A stretch of DNA of 64,000 nt from Lachnospiraceae bacterium. GTDB taxonomy: Bacteria; Bacillota; Clostridia; Lachnospirales; Lachnospiraceae. Positions 4,135-63,851 of the stretch are shown here, in pieces. A program made the translations under genes and the position numbers. The stretch lies in NCBI GenBank assembly GCA_015057035.1, contig SVFC01000004.1, positions 81,999 through 145,998 of the forward strand, written 5' to 3'. Positions within the stretch are counted from its first letter, which is position 1. Every line of letters begins with the position of its first letter. The notes beneath the pieces were generated by a model that worked only from the letters and a program-made list of their open reading frames with translations, made no database searches and was not told the DNA's origin.

Positions 4135-5272
4135 TTAATCTTCGTCACTTACCATATTTTCTGGACATCCAAGGCTTAACCACTTCAAATATCCATTTAT
4201 GAACATATCGATATCTCCGTCCATTACGTTGTCTACGTTGCCGCTTTCCACGCCAGTTCTTCTATCCTTAACCATGGTATATGGCTGCATAACATAAGAA
4301 CGAATCTGGTTACCCCAACCGATTTCTGTCACTTCTCCGCGGATGCCTGCTGCTTTTGCCATCTGCTCTTCCTGTTTCAACAGGTACAGTTTTGCCTTCA
4401 ACATCTGCATCGCCTTATCCTTGTTTTGGAACTGGGAACGCTCATTCTGACACTGTACTACAATTCCCGATGGAAAGTGAGTAATTCGGATCGCAGATGA
4501 AGTCTTGTTAATATGCTGTCCACCCGCACCACTGGAGCGGTAGGTATCAATTCGAATATCCTCGTCCTTGATTTCGATATCAATATTGTCTTCGATATCT
4601 GGCATTACATCACAAGACACAAAAGAGGTCTGTCTCTTTCCTGCCGCATTAAAAGGTGAGATACGCACGAGACGATGCACACCTTTTTCGGACTTCAAAT
4701 ATCCATAGGCATTTTCTCCATTCACTTCAAATGTAATGGATTTAATTCCTGCTTCTTCTCCATCCAGTGAGTCCAAAACAGTAAGAGAAAATCCCTTTTT
4801 ATCTGCCCATCTGGAGTACATACGGAACAACATAGATGCCCAGTCACAGGACTCGGTTCCACCAGCACCCGCATGAAGAGATACAATGGCATTATTTTTA
4901 TCATATTCTCCTGATAGCAGAGTCTTCATACGAATAGCCTCGTAAGTTGCCACGAAGTCATCTAGCATTTCCTGTATCTCCGGAATCAAAGAGGCATCGT
5001 TTTCTTCGTAACCCATTTCAATCATGGTTTCAATGTCTTCATAGCCACTTTCCAAACTCTTGTAAGTTGCCATGTCGTCCTTCATGCTCTTTAATTCCTG
5101 CATTTTTTTCTGAGAAACAGATGGGTCATTCCAGAATTCTGGCGCCTCCATTTCTCTCTCTAATTCCTGAATCCTTTGACTTTTATTAACTAAGTCAAAG
5201 TGAATCCCTCACTTCCTGTAGTGGGCTCTTATATGTGTTTAACACACTTTTAAAGTTGTCGAGTTCGACCAC
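4135..5272 (-). CDS. prfB: peptide chain release factor 2, expressed by programmed +1 frameshift
   Basis: ORF track shows only 4135..5151. Upstream GTG at 5272 gives VVELDNFKSVLNTYKSPLQEVRDSL-TGA; the +1 frame continues DLVNKSQRIQELEREMEAPEFW. GGQ motif present (SSGAGGQHINKTSSA). Confidence 0.93.
5195..5210 (-). promoter_or_regulatory. prfB programmed frameshift site (AGGGAT-TCA-CTT-TGA-C)
   Basis: Minus strand GAGGGATTCACTTTGAC: SD-like AGGGA 3 nt upstream of the CTT slip codon and in-frame TGA (5197..5195). Confidence 0.9.
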
Positions 5273-5330
5273 AGAATCACCTCTTTCTATATTAAAATCT
5301 TCAAATATTGATTTCAGATATTTGCATCAC

Positions 5331-58933: not shown

Positions 58934-60634
58934 TTATGACACCATCTTACCTTTCTCTAATTTCTTCTGCTCTTTAAAGTGCTCTTTTGCATTTGGTACA
59001 ACACACGTCTGATTTCCTTTTAATACAAAGGTCAGTTTATATGGGTCTGCTGTTCCATCTTCGTTAAAGCCACCGACCAATACTCTGTCGATGATACTTT
59101 CAAAGACCACCCTATCAAATTCATCCAAAATCTCTTCGTTTTCCAGTGTCTGACGAAGCTCCGCCATGCGCTTTCCTACATCTTTTTGCTTGTCGATACT
59201 CTCTTCCAATAACTTTTTCTTTCCATCGAGGGTATGAAGCTTTCGATTAAATTCAATCATCTTGTCATCATAGACCTCTTTGGTTATTGTACCATCAATC
59301 AGCATATCTGTCATTCGGCTTTTTTTACTATTTAAAGCTGAAATATCTTTGTCTAACTGCTGTCGTTTACGGATATCCTCATCATTTGTTAAGGAACTTT
59401 CCACCGCATCCATTACCACATCTAATACATCCTCAAAATTTCCTGCCAATAATCCGAATGCTTCAATAAATGCTCCCTCTAAAATAGATTCATCAATTGC
59501 CTTACAGTGAGGACAATTCTTAATTCCATTCTTGGTAGCATTCATGCACTGCCATACCGGTTTCTCATAAATGGAACTGCTGTGTCTGGTACGTCTCGTC
59601 AACTTATGCCCACAGAAAGCACATTCACACATGCTGCTAAAGGCATATTGCCTTGTGTAGCGTTCTCTGTTCCCCGTTGTTTCCACCACTTTATTTGTGG
59701 CTCGTTTTAATCTGATTCTTTCTGCTTCATCCCAGACCTCTCTGGAAACAATAGCTTCGTGATGGTCACGGATATAATACTGCTCCTCTTCCCCCATATT
59801 TGCCAATCTTCGTTTGGAAATCGGGTCAGTGGTAAATGTTTTTCCAAGAAGAATATCACCCTTGTACTTTTCATTTTTTATAATTCCCATTACACCATGA
59901 GTATGCCAGCTGACTTCACCTTTTTTATTCTTCTTTCCCATCTCTGTCAGGCGTTTTGCAATGGTTGTGGTCCCATACCCCTGCAAATACATATCGTAGA
60001 TAAAACGTACAATTTCTGCTTCTTCCTCATTTACTGTTAACGTTTTATCTTCTGGGTGATAATCATATCCCAGACAACCATTAAAACCTATCAGCTCTCC
60101 ACGCTTCATTTTCATCTTAAGCCCCATCTTCACATTTTGCGAAAGTGACTCTACTTCCTGCTGTGCAAGGGAACTCATAATCGTAAGAAGCAATTCTCCG
60201 TTCATATCCAGCGTATTGATATTTTCCTTTTCAAAGAAAATCGCTATATTCCGTTCTCTAAGCATTCTTACATATTGAAGCGTGTCCAACGTATTTCTTG
60301 CAAATCGGGAAATAGATTTTGTCAGTATCATATCAATTTCCCCATTCTGACACTTCTGTATCATCGCTTGGAAACCGTCTCTTTTATCTACCTTGGTTCC
60401 CGTTATGGCTTCATCAGCGAAAATACCTGCATTGACCCAATCCGGATTCGCTCGAATCTTTTCTTCATAATATAATTTTTGAGATTCAAAACTACCCAAC
60501 TGGTCATCATCGTCCGTGGACACTCTGCAATATGCCGCCACACGGATTCTGTTTACTTTAATTGCTTCTCTTCTTGTTCTGCCCCTGCTATTTGGAGCAA
60601 TTCTTGTTGCTTCTAAAATTTTTACTTTACTCAT
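58934..60634 (-). CDS. large serine recombinase
   Basis: VAAYCRVSTDDDDQLGSFESQK; ISRFARNTLDTLQYVRML; recombinase domain; zinc ribbon CAFCGHKLTRRTRHSS; coiled coil. Confidence 0.96.
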   Translation of the reverse strand: MSKVKILEATRIAPNSRGRTRREAIKVNRIRVAAYCRVSTDDDDQLGSFESQKLYYEEKIRANPDWVNAGIFADEAITGTKVDKRDGFQAMIQKCQNGEIDMILTKSISRFARNTLDTLQYVRMLRERNIAIFFEKENINTLDMNGELLLTIMSSLAQQEVESLSQNVKMGLKMKMKRGELIGFNGCLGYDYHPEDKTLTVNEEEAEIVRFIYDMYLQGYGTTTIAKRLTEMGKKNKKGEVSWHTHGVMGIIKNEKYKGDILLGKTFTTDPISKRRLANMGEEEQYYIRDHHEAIVSREVWDEAERIRLKRATNKVVETTGNRERYTRQYAFSSMCECAFCGHKLTRRTRHSSSIYEKPVWQCMNATKNGIKNCPHCKAIDESILEGAFIEAFGLLAGNFEDVLDVVMDAVESSLTNDEDIRKRQQLDKDISALNSKKSRMTDMLIDGTITKEVYDDKMIEFNRKLHTLDGKKKLLEESIDKQKDVGKRMAELRQTLENEEILDEFDRVVFESIIDRVLVGGFNEDGTADPYKLTFVLKGNQTCVVPNAKEHFKEQKKLEKGKMVS

Positions 60635-60745
60635 ACATAACCTCCATCAAATCTTTATAATGTAAAATGTCAGCTTCACAAGTTTCCCTGTGTCTGCTGA
60701 CATTGTATCTTCTTTTTTAATTGTGAACGAATGTGTAACCTCTGG

Positions 60746-60945
60746 CTCGAATTATTCATAGCAGCAAAGTGAAATCTATAATTCTGGCTTCAAGCTTGCT
60801 TGCAAGACAAATTATAGATTTTACTTGCTATGTGAATAGAATTCACCCACCACACAGCCACAGACAAAAGCTGCAACGCAGCGACAGATGTGCTTTGCGC
60901 AGATGGTCTGTGGCTTGTTTGTGTGGTGGCTGTGAATAATTCGAG
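60746..60945. repeat. Nested inverted-repeat element with cloverleaf-like (four-way junction) fold
   Basis: P1 CTCGAATTATTCA/TGAATAATTCGAG; P2 60758-60783 with 60810-60831; P3 60832-60837 with 60841-60846; P4 60847-60865 with 60906-60929. Confidence 0.85.
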
Positions 60946-60950
60946 TGTTC

Positions 60951-61181
60951 CTATGCCGCTGACTGACTTGTTTCTACAACCAGATATTTATTCATAATCT
61001 TGTTTCTTGCAATCGTGTATTCTGCTTCGGAAATCAATCCCATTCGGAAAATCTTTCTTAACACCGCAATACATTTCGCATACTCCAGTTCTCTTCCCAT
61101 AATCTTTAACCTCCTCTTCTTTGCTATCACCTTCTTTCGTTGGTGTCTTTTCCGCTGGCTCGTGATTGCTTTAGCTTCCAT
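60951..61181 (-). CDS. SHOCT-like small basic protein
   Basis: MEAKAITSQRKRHQRKKVIAKKRRLKIMGRELEYAKCIAVLRKIFRMGLISEAEYTIARNKIMNKY; RBS AGAGGGG upstream. Confidence 0.7.
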   Translation of the reverse strand: MEAKAITSQRKRHQRKKVIAKKRRLKIMGRELEYAKCIAVLRKIFRMGLISEAEYTIARNKIMNKYLVVETSQSAA

Positions 61182-61499
61182 TCGTATCCCCTCTGTCAAC
61201 GTTCCAGTTGACCTTTAGCTATTCTTAGCCTGTACGCCTCTCCTGCGCGAGATCCTCTCGTACCCTTTCGGAAGTGTCTTTCTTCGCTCCGTCTTTCGAC
61301 ATCCTGGCAAATCCTGTTCCAAGGGAGATACAGCTTATTCAATTTTCAAGGTACATATGTTATAATCTTTTGTAGCCATTTCTTTGGTTTTTTGACTTCC
61401 GATGGCTACCTTTGTCAAGAGTAAAAATAGCAAAAAAAGTTTAAAAATATCATTGACGGCGACTTGACCAAAAGTTGCCAAAAAATTTTAGGAGGACGT

Positions 61500-63851
61500 G
61501 TGAAGAACCAGATTACCTTCTCCAATGTAATTGGAGTGTTATTAGAAAACAGAAAGAAAACTTATACGCAGTATCAGATGGTGCAGAGCATCTTTTCCGA
61601 ATATTTGGATGACACCTTAAAGAATGCGGATTTGTATCCGGAAGACCACACACAGATTAGTAAATGGTGTAGCGGCGAGCGTGCCATTCCACATAAAATC
61701 ATTAGCGTGTATGATGAGGAAAATCTATGGGATGAAATGAAGGAATCCTTTTCTACAAAAATCATTCCGAACCTGCTGAACGAAGCACAGGCTCGCACTC
61801 AGTTGGAAGCTCTTCTATCCGCAAGTGTTGATGTTATTGGAACAGACATGGTAAATGAGATAAGAAATCTTACGGATAACGCAGCCTTTTTTACTGCCAT
61901 GGTTCGCTATGCCATTTTGAATGACCACAAACAGGATGTGGTATATTCTCCTGATTTATCAGAACGCCTGCTATCCGGACGCACACCATCCTGTGCGAAG
62001 GAATTTCTGGGCAGAAAAAAAGAATTGTCCGAAGCTGCATCAAAGCTGAAAGACAATCCTCTGCTTTTTGTTACCGGTATTGCCGGAATCGGAAAAAGTG
62101 AATTTGCAAAGCAGTTTGCAAAAAAGAATGAAAAGAAATATACAAATATTATTTACCTGTATTACACAGGCAGCTTAAAGAAATGTATTGCCGAACTGGA
62201 ATTTCATTCGGATACCGCTGAAATGACAGAAGCAGAATTATTTGAATCCCACTATGCCGTACTGAAGGCATTGCATCCCGACAGCCTTATTATCCTTGAT
62301 AACTTTAACGTACAGCCCAAAGACGATGATTTCTTCCGTGAATTTATCAAAAACAAGTTCCAGCTTCTCATAACTACCCGCTGTAAGATTACAGCATTTG
62401 AAACCTTAGAACTGAAAGAACTGGATAAAGAAAAAGAACTCACAGAACTGTTCTTCCGTCACTGCCCATCTGCAAAATCAGACGTAGAAACTGTATCGGA
62501 GATTATAGATGTGCTAAATGCCCACACGCTCACCGTGTGCCTTTCTGCACTGACCTTAGAAGCCAGCGGCATGGATATTTCAGAGCTATTGTATGAGTTA
62601 AAAACCTCCAGTATCTGTACCAATATTTCCGAGGAAGTGGAGCTTTATAAAGACGAAACCTTTACCAATGCAAGAATGGCAGAGCATTTACGGAAATTAT
62701 TGCAGCTGAATAAGTTAAACGAAAACCAACTGGATATGTTACGTAACCTATCCCTTCTTCCTATATCCGGTATAAACAAAGCATATTTCAGACAATGGCT
62801 ACACTTGGAGAATCTGAATGATGTAAACCACCTCATCCGCTATGGATTTATTACCGAAGATACAGAAAACAAAAAAATCAGCCTGCATCCAATGATACAG
62901 GAAATTTCCTTTGCAGAAACCCTACCAACCGTATCTGCCTGCTACACCTTATTAAACAGTTTACATGCTCTATGTCTGGTACATGGATTGGAAGTGCGAA
63001 GACCAGAAATGATAATTCAATCCCTTCTCAGTGTTACCGAACGAATTGTAGTAGATGAACCGAGGGATTATTTAAACTTTTTGCAGGATATGTTCCCATA
63101 TTTGGAAAAGTATCTGGTTACGGATTATCTGCCAAAACTGGCAGAACGTATTTCTTATATGATGGAAAAATATCAGTTGGATACACCTTGTGATAAGGCA
63201 CTGATTTTAGACTACAAAGCAGAACTCTTTGTATTAAAGAAAGATTTTAATAATGCCCTAAAGAAACGCCAAAAAGCCATTCAAATCATGGAGAAATTGC
63301 ATACTCCTGAAGCAGATATATCTACTGCAAGCCTGCTATCCAACCTGTATAACAATCTTTCCAACACTTATCTTTATCTGCATAAAGGAAAAGAGGCAGC
63401 CGAAGCACTCCGCATGGCATTTCAAATACGAATGGAATATGCACATCTTGGGCTGATAGAATCCCACGATACTCTCCAGCAGATTATGAACCTGACAAAT
63501 ATGCTGCTGTTAGCAAAAGAATGGGAACAGGCAAGACAAATTTTATCCCTGTACGAATCTCTTGTATTGGAATATGAAAGCACCGAATGTCTGGACTATG
63601 GTATCTGTCAGATGATGTATGGAATTTTAGCTTTAAACGAAAAAATTCCATCCAAAGCAGAACAACATCTCTTACAAGCGGAACAGATTATTTCTACTGT
63701 GATGGGTATAGAGAATGACTATGCTAAAACTGTTTACCGCCACTTGTATAGTTTATATGCCAGATGGAATAAGCCGGAATTGGCAAAGAAATATAAAGAA
63801 AAACTTTTTCAGAAAAATACGAATAGTGCACCATATCGGTGCATACAATAA
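61500..63851 (+). CDS. NB-ARC/STAND ATPase with N-terminal HTH-like region and C-terminal TPR-like repeats
   Basis: GTG start after AGGAGG; GIAGIGKSEFAKQF Walker A; DSLIILDNF Walker B; FQLLITTRCKI; TPR-like C-terminus. Confidence 0.88.
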   Translation: MKNQITFSNVIGVLLENRKKTYTQYQMVQSIFSEYLDDTLKNADLYPEDHTQISKWCSGERAIPHKIISVYDEENLWDEMKESFSTKIIPNLLNEAQARTQLEALLSASVDVIGTDMVNEIRNLTDNAAFFTAMVRYAILNDHKQDVVYSPDLSERLLSGRTPSCAKEFLGRKKELSEAASKLKDNPLLFVTGIAGIGKSEFAKQFAKKNEKKYTNIIYLYYTGSLKKCIAELEFHSDTAEMTEAELFESHYAVLKALHPDSLIILDNFNVQPKDDDFFREFIKNKFQLLITTRCKITAFETLELKELDKEKELTELFFRHCPSAKSDVETVSEIIDVLNAHTLTVCLSALTLEASGMDISELLYELKTSSICTNISEEVELYKDETFTNARMAEHLRKLLQLNKLNENQLDMLRNLSLLPISGINKAYFRQWLHLENLNDVNHLIRYGFITEDTENKKISLHPMIQEISFAETLPTVSACYTLLNSLHALCLVHGLEVRRPEMIIQSLLSVTERIVVDEPRDYLNFLQDMFPYLEKYLVTDYLPKLAERISYMMEKYQLDTPCDKALILDYKAELFVLKKDFNNALKKRQKAIQIMEKLHTPEADISTASLLSNLYNNLSNTYLYLHKGKEAAEALRMAFQIRMEYAHLGLIESHDTLQQIMNLTNMLLLAKEWEQARQILSLYESLVLEYESTECLDYGICQMMYGILALNEKIPSKAEQHLLQAEQIISTVMGIENDYAKTVYRHLYSLYARWNKPELAKKYKEKLFQKNTNSAPYRCIQ

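Follow-up and report, generated by a model that had tools for sequence, protein, structure and literature searches.

The stretch of DNA analysed here (the window, 64,000 nucleotides of a Lachnospiraceae contig) carries, between a large serine recombinase gene and a small SHOCT-like open reading frame (ORF), an element of 200 bp with 16-bp terminal repeats and no gene. The first-pass annotation placed it in a mobile element, a setting that is putative: a large serine recombinase is encoded at 58934-60634, and the end of the window is also the end of the contig. In agreement with that annotation, no ORF of at least 60 aa covers 60746-60945. The features of the locus are the following:

58934..60634, minus strand: large serine recombinase (Resolvase, Recombinase, Zn_ribbon_recom), outside the element
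60746..60945, plus strand: full-length cloverleaf MITE of class B, present once in its genome (fold z; intergenic copies of G055, 82-87% identical; family alignment)
60746..60761, plus strand: left terminal inverted repeat CTCGAATTATTCATAG, class consensus CCCGAATTATTCACAG
60762..60831, plus strand: long arm; its apical hairpin CAAGC-TTG-CTTG lies at about 60791-60803 and is flanked by an internal loop (fold; covariation in relatives)
60832..60846, plus strand: short arm GTGAAT-AGA-ATTCAC (fold, alignments)
60847..60929, plus strand: forked arm (fold; core motif conserved across all classes)
within 60847..60929, plus strand: basal stem of the forked arm, CCACCACACA/TGTGTGGTGG
within 60847..60929, plus strand: core stem of the forked arm, AGCCACAGAC/GTCTGTGGC
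60870..60882, plus strand: fork hairpin 1, GCTGC-AAC-GCAGC, nearly invariant family-wide (alignment)
60889..60901, plus strand: fork hairpin 2, TGTGC-TTT-GCGCA (fold)
60915-60919, plus strand: forked-arm bulge TTGTT
60930..60945, minus strand: right terminal inverted repeat, read on the minus strand as CTCGAATTATTCACAG
60951..61199, minus strand: SHOCT-like ORF, its stop codon 5 bp from the element, a position typical of the family

Near the SHOCT-like ORF and the recombinase, at 61464-63851, the window also encodes a 795-aa protein resembling STAND NTPases, with a TPR-like match (nSTAND6), which may be the product of a defence-type gene.

Single-strand folding of 60736-60955 results, for both strands, in one closed structure with several branches, in which the terminal inverted repeat is the closing stem of a cloverleaf and encloses the long, short and forked arms. 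The folding energy is -60.1 kcal/mol with DNA parameters (z -11.1), -99.4 for the plus-strand RNA (z -10.2) and -87.6 for the minus-strand RNA (z -8.4), and in each case 0 of 200 shuffles were as low. The closed structure proposed in the first-pass annotation is thus borne out, with z of about -10 to -11 for DNA and plus-strand RNA, as is its formation by both strands, and every stem named there was found in its place. What had been described as a 19-bp arm has the proposed stem and the hairpin GCTGC-AAC-GCAGC, and is forked, the second hairpin having been missed.

The fold is not confined to this locus; it is one copy of a dispersed family. Four copies lie at unrelated intergenic sites of a genome of the same genus (G055), with 82-87% identity, and the core motif AGCCNNAGACANRAGCTRCN{3,4}GYAGC has 9 matches in that genome and 22 in one of another genus (G112), while its backwards control has 0 matches in any genome. 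Roseburia hominis An869 carries about 30 family copies. Scanning one genome per species with the core motif yielded at least 118 stretches, and among the matches listed the record titles are nearly all Lachnospiraceae, Roseburia or Eubacterium. A search with a forked-arm covariance model (R1, the fork minus one hairpin) recovered the arm in 19 of the 397 Lachnospiraceae genomes sampled and in 18 of 334 genera; since at most 13 candidates were scored per genome, the copy counts of this census are lower bounds. The distribution is patchy, as expected of a mobile element. No core motif was found in viral contigs, and scans of these contigs with end patterns of 14-15 bases returned unrelated matches, apparently by chance. 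Searches of plasmids and phages did not find the element, the recombinase gene alone being matched, in phages.

The copies are mainly intergenic, 57 of 67 overlapping no ORF of at least 100 aa, and both orientations with respect to neighbouring genes are equally common (21 versus 20). Their median distance is 13 bp to stop codons and 93 bp to starts, and in tandem gene pairs the copy lies closer to the 3' end in 27 of 39 cases (p 0.024). In the Lachnospiraceae MAGs of four related species (L051, L070, L086 and L116), the element is situated exactly 5 bp after the stop codon of one orthologous gene, whose product ends in ...RPTPVPEM; the upstream DNA is 80-85% identical, the downstream gene is also common to two of them, and the long arm remains paired despite differing letters. 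These four copies are most simply read as inherited vertically, with the compensatory changes arising on the spot, and repeated targeted insertion may be an alternative. The same arrangement is seen behind a second gene, ending in ...ERM, in L075 and L157. In L070, a class-C element is partly duplicated in tandem downstream of the element at 5079-5281 (minus strand), the duplicate lying directly behind the first copy.

Broadly, the family can be divided according to its ends. Class-A copies end in GTAACAGTTCAGCC, and 14 of the 40 are flanked by an exact 8-bp target duplication (shuffle mean 0.38). Class B, the class of the window copy, ends in CCCGAATTATTCACAG with the tip CCCGAAT, and exact 5-bp duplications flank 12 of its 28 copies (shuffle 0.92), no other duplication length standing out. 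Class D ends in GTTACTATTCACRG, and exact 8-bp duplications flank two copies, L686 and L687, in the latter case only on the assumption of a mutated right end. Taking together all pairs with GTWACWRTTCA tips, an exact 8-bp duplication is present in 17 of 50 (shuffle mean 0.36). Class C, with ends CAGTTTTGCCATGCAT and without duplications, appears to consist of old class-A copies. Class D has its inner TATTCACAGCC in common with class B and its tip in common with class A; classes B and D share their entire interior as well as the inner terminal repeat, and differ in the tip. Given the 5-bp duplications and the distinct tip of the window's class, one body is found with at least two kinds of ends. 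In R. hominis An869, class-B copies of 200, 100, 81, 68 and 37 bp occur, most of them with an exact and usually A+T-rich 5-bp duplication. The short derivatives retain the terminal repeats and one arm, or the repeats alone, and the interior is therefore dispensable for at least some transposition.

Class-A ends are also seen around unrelated folded interiors, of 142 bp in L250:3380-3521, L252:3410-3551 and L257:3525-3666 and of 93 bp in L176:1501-1593, two of these four elements being flanked by exact 8-bp duplications. A further element with class-A ends, L269:3244-3543 (G112:C258), contains another MITE nested inside, with ends GTTACTGCTCATGGGGTGGGGAAATT that resemble those of the IS66-like element described below.

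Terminal inverted repeats, the lack of a gene, an intergenic location and dispersed relatives flanked by target-site duplications mark the family as one of MITEs, and the window copy is a single old copy of this family of gut Lachnospiraceae mini-transposons. No second copy was found in the source genome (84.7% complete) and no target duplication at the window copy; an empty site was sought as well, the flanking DNA being absent from all relatives searched. Copies in both orientations and target-site duplications are the mark of a transposable element. They do not fit an oriT or a regulator tied to one gene, and hence two suggestions of the first-pass annotation, namely an oriT and a regulatory element between the two genes. 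A role as a cruciform or in the 3' UTR may still apply to the element.

Candidate movers can be proposed for part of the family. A complete, divergent IS66-like element of 2308 bp, L322:304-2611 (G112:C149), encodes a 581-aa transposase together with a 100-aa ORF, and has perfect 23-bp terminal repeats GTTACTTTTCACGGGGTGGGGAA beginning with GTTACTTTTCACGG, a tip that equals class D at 13 of 14 positions. A relationship of its transposase to IS66 is indicated by Pfam (E 1.5e-17) and by the NCBIfam IS66 model (E 7.8e-40, under the cut-off), and no 8-bp duplication was found around the element. A human-gut sequence whose transposase is 46% identical to that of L322 ends in GTTACTGTTCAGAG, as does a truncated relative in G195. 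Furthermore, plasmid-borne elements annotated as ISGka4 and ISGst1, as well as an IS66-like element of Planococcus, have ends equal or close to GTAACTATTCAGCC, which is the end of L250/L252, and are flanked by exact 8-bp duplications. The name ISGka4 has been applied to an ISLre2-family element in one paper (PMC8024623), and is used here as in the plasmid annotation. ISDge4, an active element of the ISBst12 group, has ends GTGACTACTCAGCA/GTAACTGCTCAGCA and an 8-bp repeat (PMC12898284). Since classes A and D match the ends and the duplication length of ISBst12-group IS66 elements, such transposases are likely their movers, in trans. Class B lacks both the 8-bp duplication and the GTWAC tip that mark an ISBst12-group origin, and hunts starting from terminal repeats or from transposases in R. 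hominis An869 and G055 did not reveal any autonomous element that ends like class B.

The fold itself has been conserved. In class A2, 27 of 63 pairs have changed on both sides with pairing kept, as have 30 of 53 in A1 and C taken together; in both sets 0 of 500 shuffles reach the observed score, and slid controls fall far below it. In class B, 18 of 70 pairs show compensatory change. Far-diverged members (e.g., L646, L651, L658 and L659) keep the closing stem and the long, short and forked arms with few stem letters in common, and the forked arm has near-invariant letters across all classes. The first-pass annotation had staked its proposal on conservation among relatives and on covariation: related copies with the fold kept were found, and compensatory changes are abundant. 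Judging from the alignments, the three-armed fold appears to be retained by matched mutations even after an exchange of ends. Some non-canonical positions, G.A in the long arm and T.T in the forked arm, are conserved and always on the same strand. Isolated stem mismatches, counted with strict neighbours, are G.T 25, A.C 13, A.G 5 and C.T 5, whereas tRNAs from the same loci have 12 G.T and 0 A.C; by this comparison the stems of the element do not seem to behave like those of a strongly selected RNA. An earlier count that seemed strand-symmetric (G.T 56, A.C 41) was partly alignment noise. A strand-neutral count gave an excess of G.A over C.T, which comes mostly from recurring conserved positions and is thus not used as proof of an RNA.

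Taken together, we favour, with a probability of about 0.88, the reading of 60746-60945 as a non-autonomous MITE whose class-A and class-D relatives are moved by ISBst12-group transposases, class B being the same body with exchanged ends. Under this proposal, IS66-type transposases of the ISBst12 group would act in trans on class-A and class-D elements, and the body would have exchanged its ends and thereby its transposase. The window copy would be an old insertion after the stop codon of the SHOCT-like ORF, and would since have lost its duplication. The three-armed fold would be kept because a paired single strand matters: it may serve the transposition cycle, or it may be tolerated as a structure at 3' ends, and palindrome copying may help to restore its pairing.

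Different explanations of the element and of its fold have to be weighed against this reading. The oriT, or replication cruciform, of an element carrying the serine recombinase would account for a large cruciform-capable palindrome adjoining the recombinase, but close copies sit in unrelated intergenic sites, no relaxase was found among the six neighbouring genes tested within the contig, and the element was not found in the plasmids and phages searched, which makes this explanation scarcely credible. A REP/REPIN-type palindrome mobilised by a RAYT (HUH) transposase is also very improbable: the palindromic character, the intergenic location, the many copies and the frequent position after stop codons would fit, but the 8-bp or 5-bp target duplications, the DDE-type terminal repeats, the size of 170-200 bp and the ends matching IS66-type transposons do not. 

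Two other explanations bear on the upkeep of the fold, and the weight given to them does not concern the identity of the element as a MITE. One proposes a structured ncRNA or 3' UTR spread by transposition, with a functional plus-strand transcript and a fold kept by selection on the RNA. Compensatory changes in most helices, a forked arm nearly invariant in every class, non-canonical pairs always on the same strand, copies shortly after stop codons and the orthologous copies of four species with their pairing retained all speak for it; the A.C mismatches that the tRNAs lack and the equal orientations speak against it, as do the Rfam search of three family members, which gave no match, and the window, in which no conserved promoter or terminator was seen. 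The structured ncRNA suggested in the first-pass annotation is accordingly a poor fit, and we regard this account as unlikely. The other explanation considers ordinary MITEs whose fold is kept without selection, the palindrome halves being re-matched by template switching during replication. It agrees with the near-symmetric sporadic mismatches and with short derivatives that lose whole arms cleanly, as slippage across hairpins predicts, but it leaves unexplained the near-invariant letters of the forked arm, the arm order and internal loops kept even where members share hardly any stem letters, and the retention in four species. As a full account it is possible, at somewhat less than even odds. 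Selection at a transposition stage, palindrome copying and a 3'-end role are each possible contributors, and the reading given most weight combines palindrome copying with selection that acts on the forked arm. A bolder and rather doubtful extension is that the cloverleaf is a functional folded strand (RNA or single-stranded DNA) that swaps tips between at least two transposase systems and in some lineages has become a fixed 3'-end element for certain genes.

From the genomic point of view, gut Lachnospiraceae gain a deep family of structured mini-transposons, two of whose end classes are given a likely source in ISBst12-group IS66 transposases. A single folded body with differing tips and duplication lengths provides a natural experiment, and it can now be asked whether the folded interiors of bacterial MITEs are carried as cargo, arise as by-products when palindromes are copied, or are needed by transposition or by mRNA 3' ends. 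The family is also a warning that a strong fold with covariation is insufficient on its own for calling an ncRNA gene. The open-access literature gave no match for the end sequence, for MITEs of Roseburia or for a structured RNA of this kind in Lachnospiraceae, and the family is undescribed so far in Rfam 15 and in the open-access papers searched.

Among known systems, the ISBst12 group of the IS66 family (ISBst12, ISGka4, ISGst1, ISDge4) is alike in its GTAACTATTCAGCC-like ends and in the 8-bp duplications of classes A and D; the MITE family differs in having a folded interior and no transposase, and class B in its other tip and 5-bp duplications. REP/REPIN sequences with their RAYT are likewise palindromic, intergenic and near stop codons (PMC3733652), but they measure 20-40 bp and bear GTAG or CGTC tags, whereas the cloverleaf family has DDE-type repeats and duplications. 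QMITE2, Correia/NEMIS, ERIC/RU-1, RUP and BOX/SPRITE are similar in their approximately 100-200 bp, terminal repeats, lack of proteins, intergenic location and stable folds. Bacterial MITEs of this size are highly paired, intergenic and sometimes found in 3' UTRs, as QMITE2 mostly is, and some structured MITEs are nested (PMC10969869; PMC2229807). The CIR repeats of Caulobacter and Brucella are intergenic, with phylogenetically conserved multi-arm RNA models (PMC2229807); compared by their description alone, they differ in having two arms and a linker, no closing stem of terminal repeats and a partly MITE-like character. Bacterial MITEs other than CIR form a long stem-loop by pairing of their ends, with no arms (PMC2229807). 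Unlike them, the cloverleaf family combines a closing stem with three arms, one of them forked, covarying across genera, and by that comparison it represents a new structural variant.
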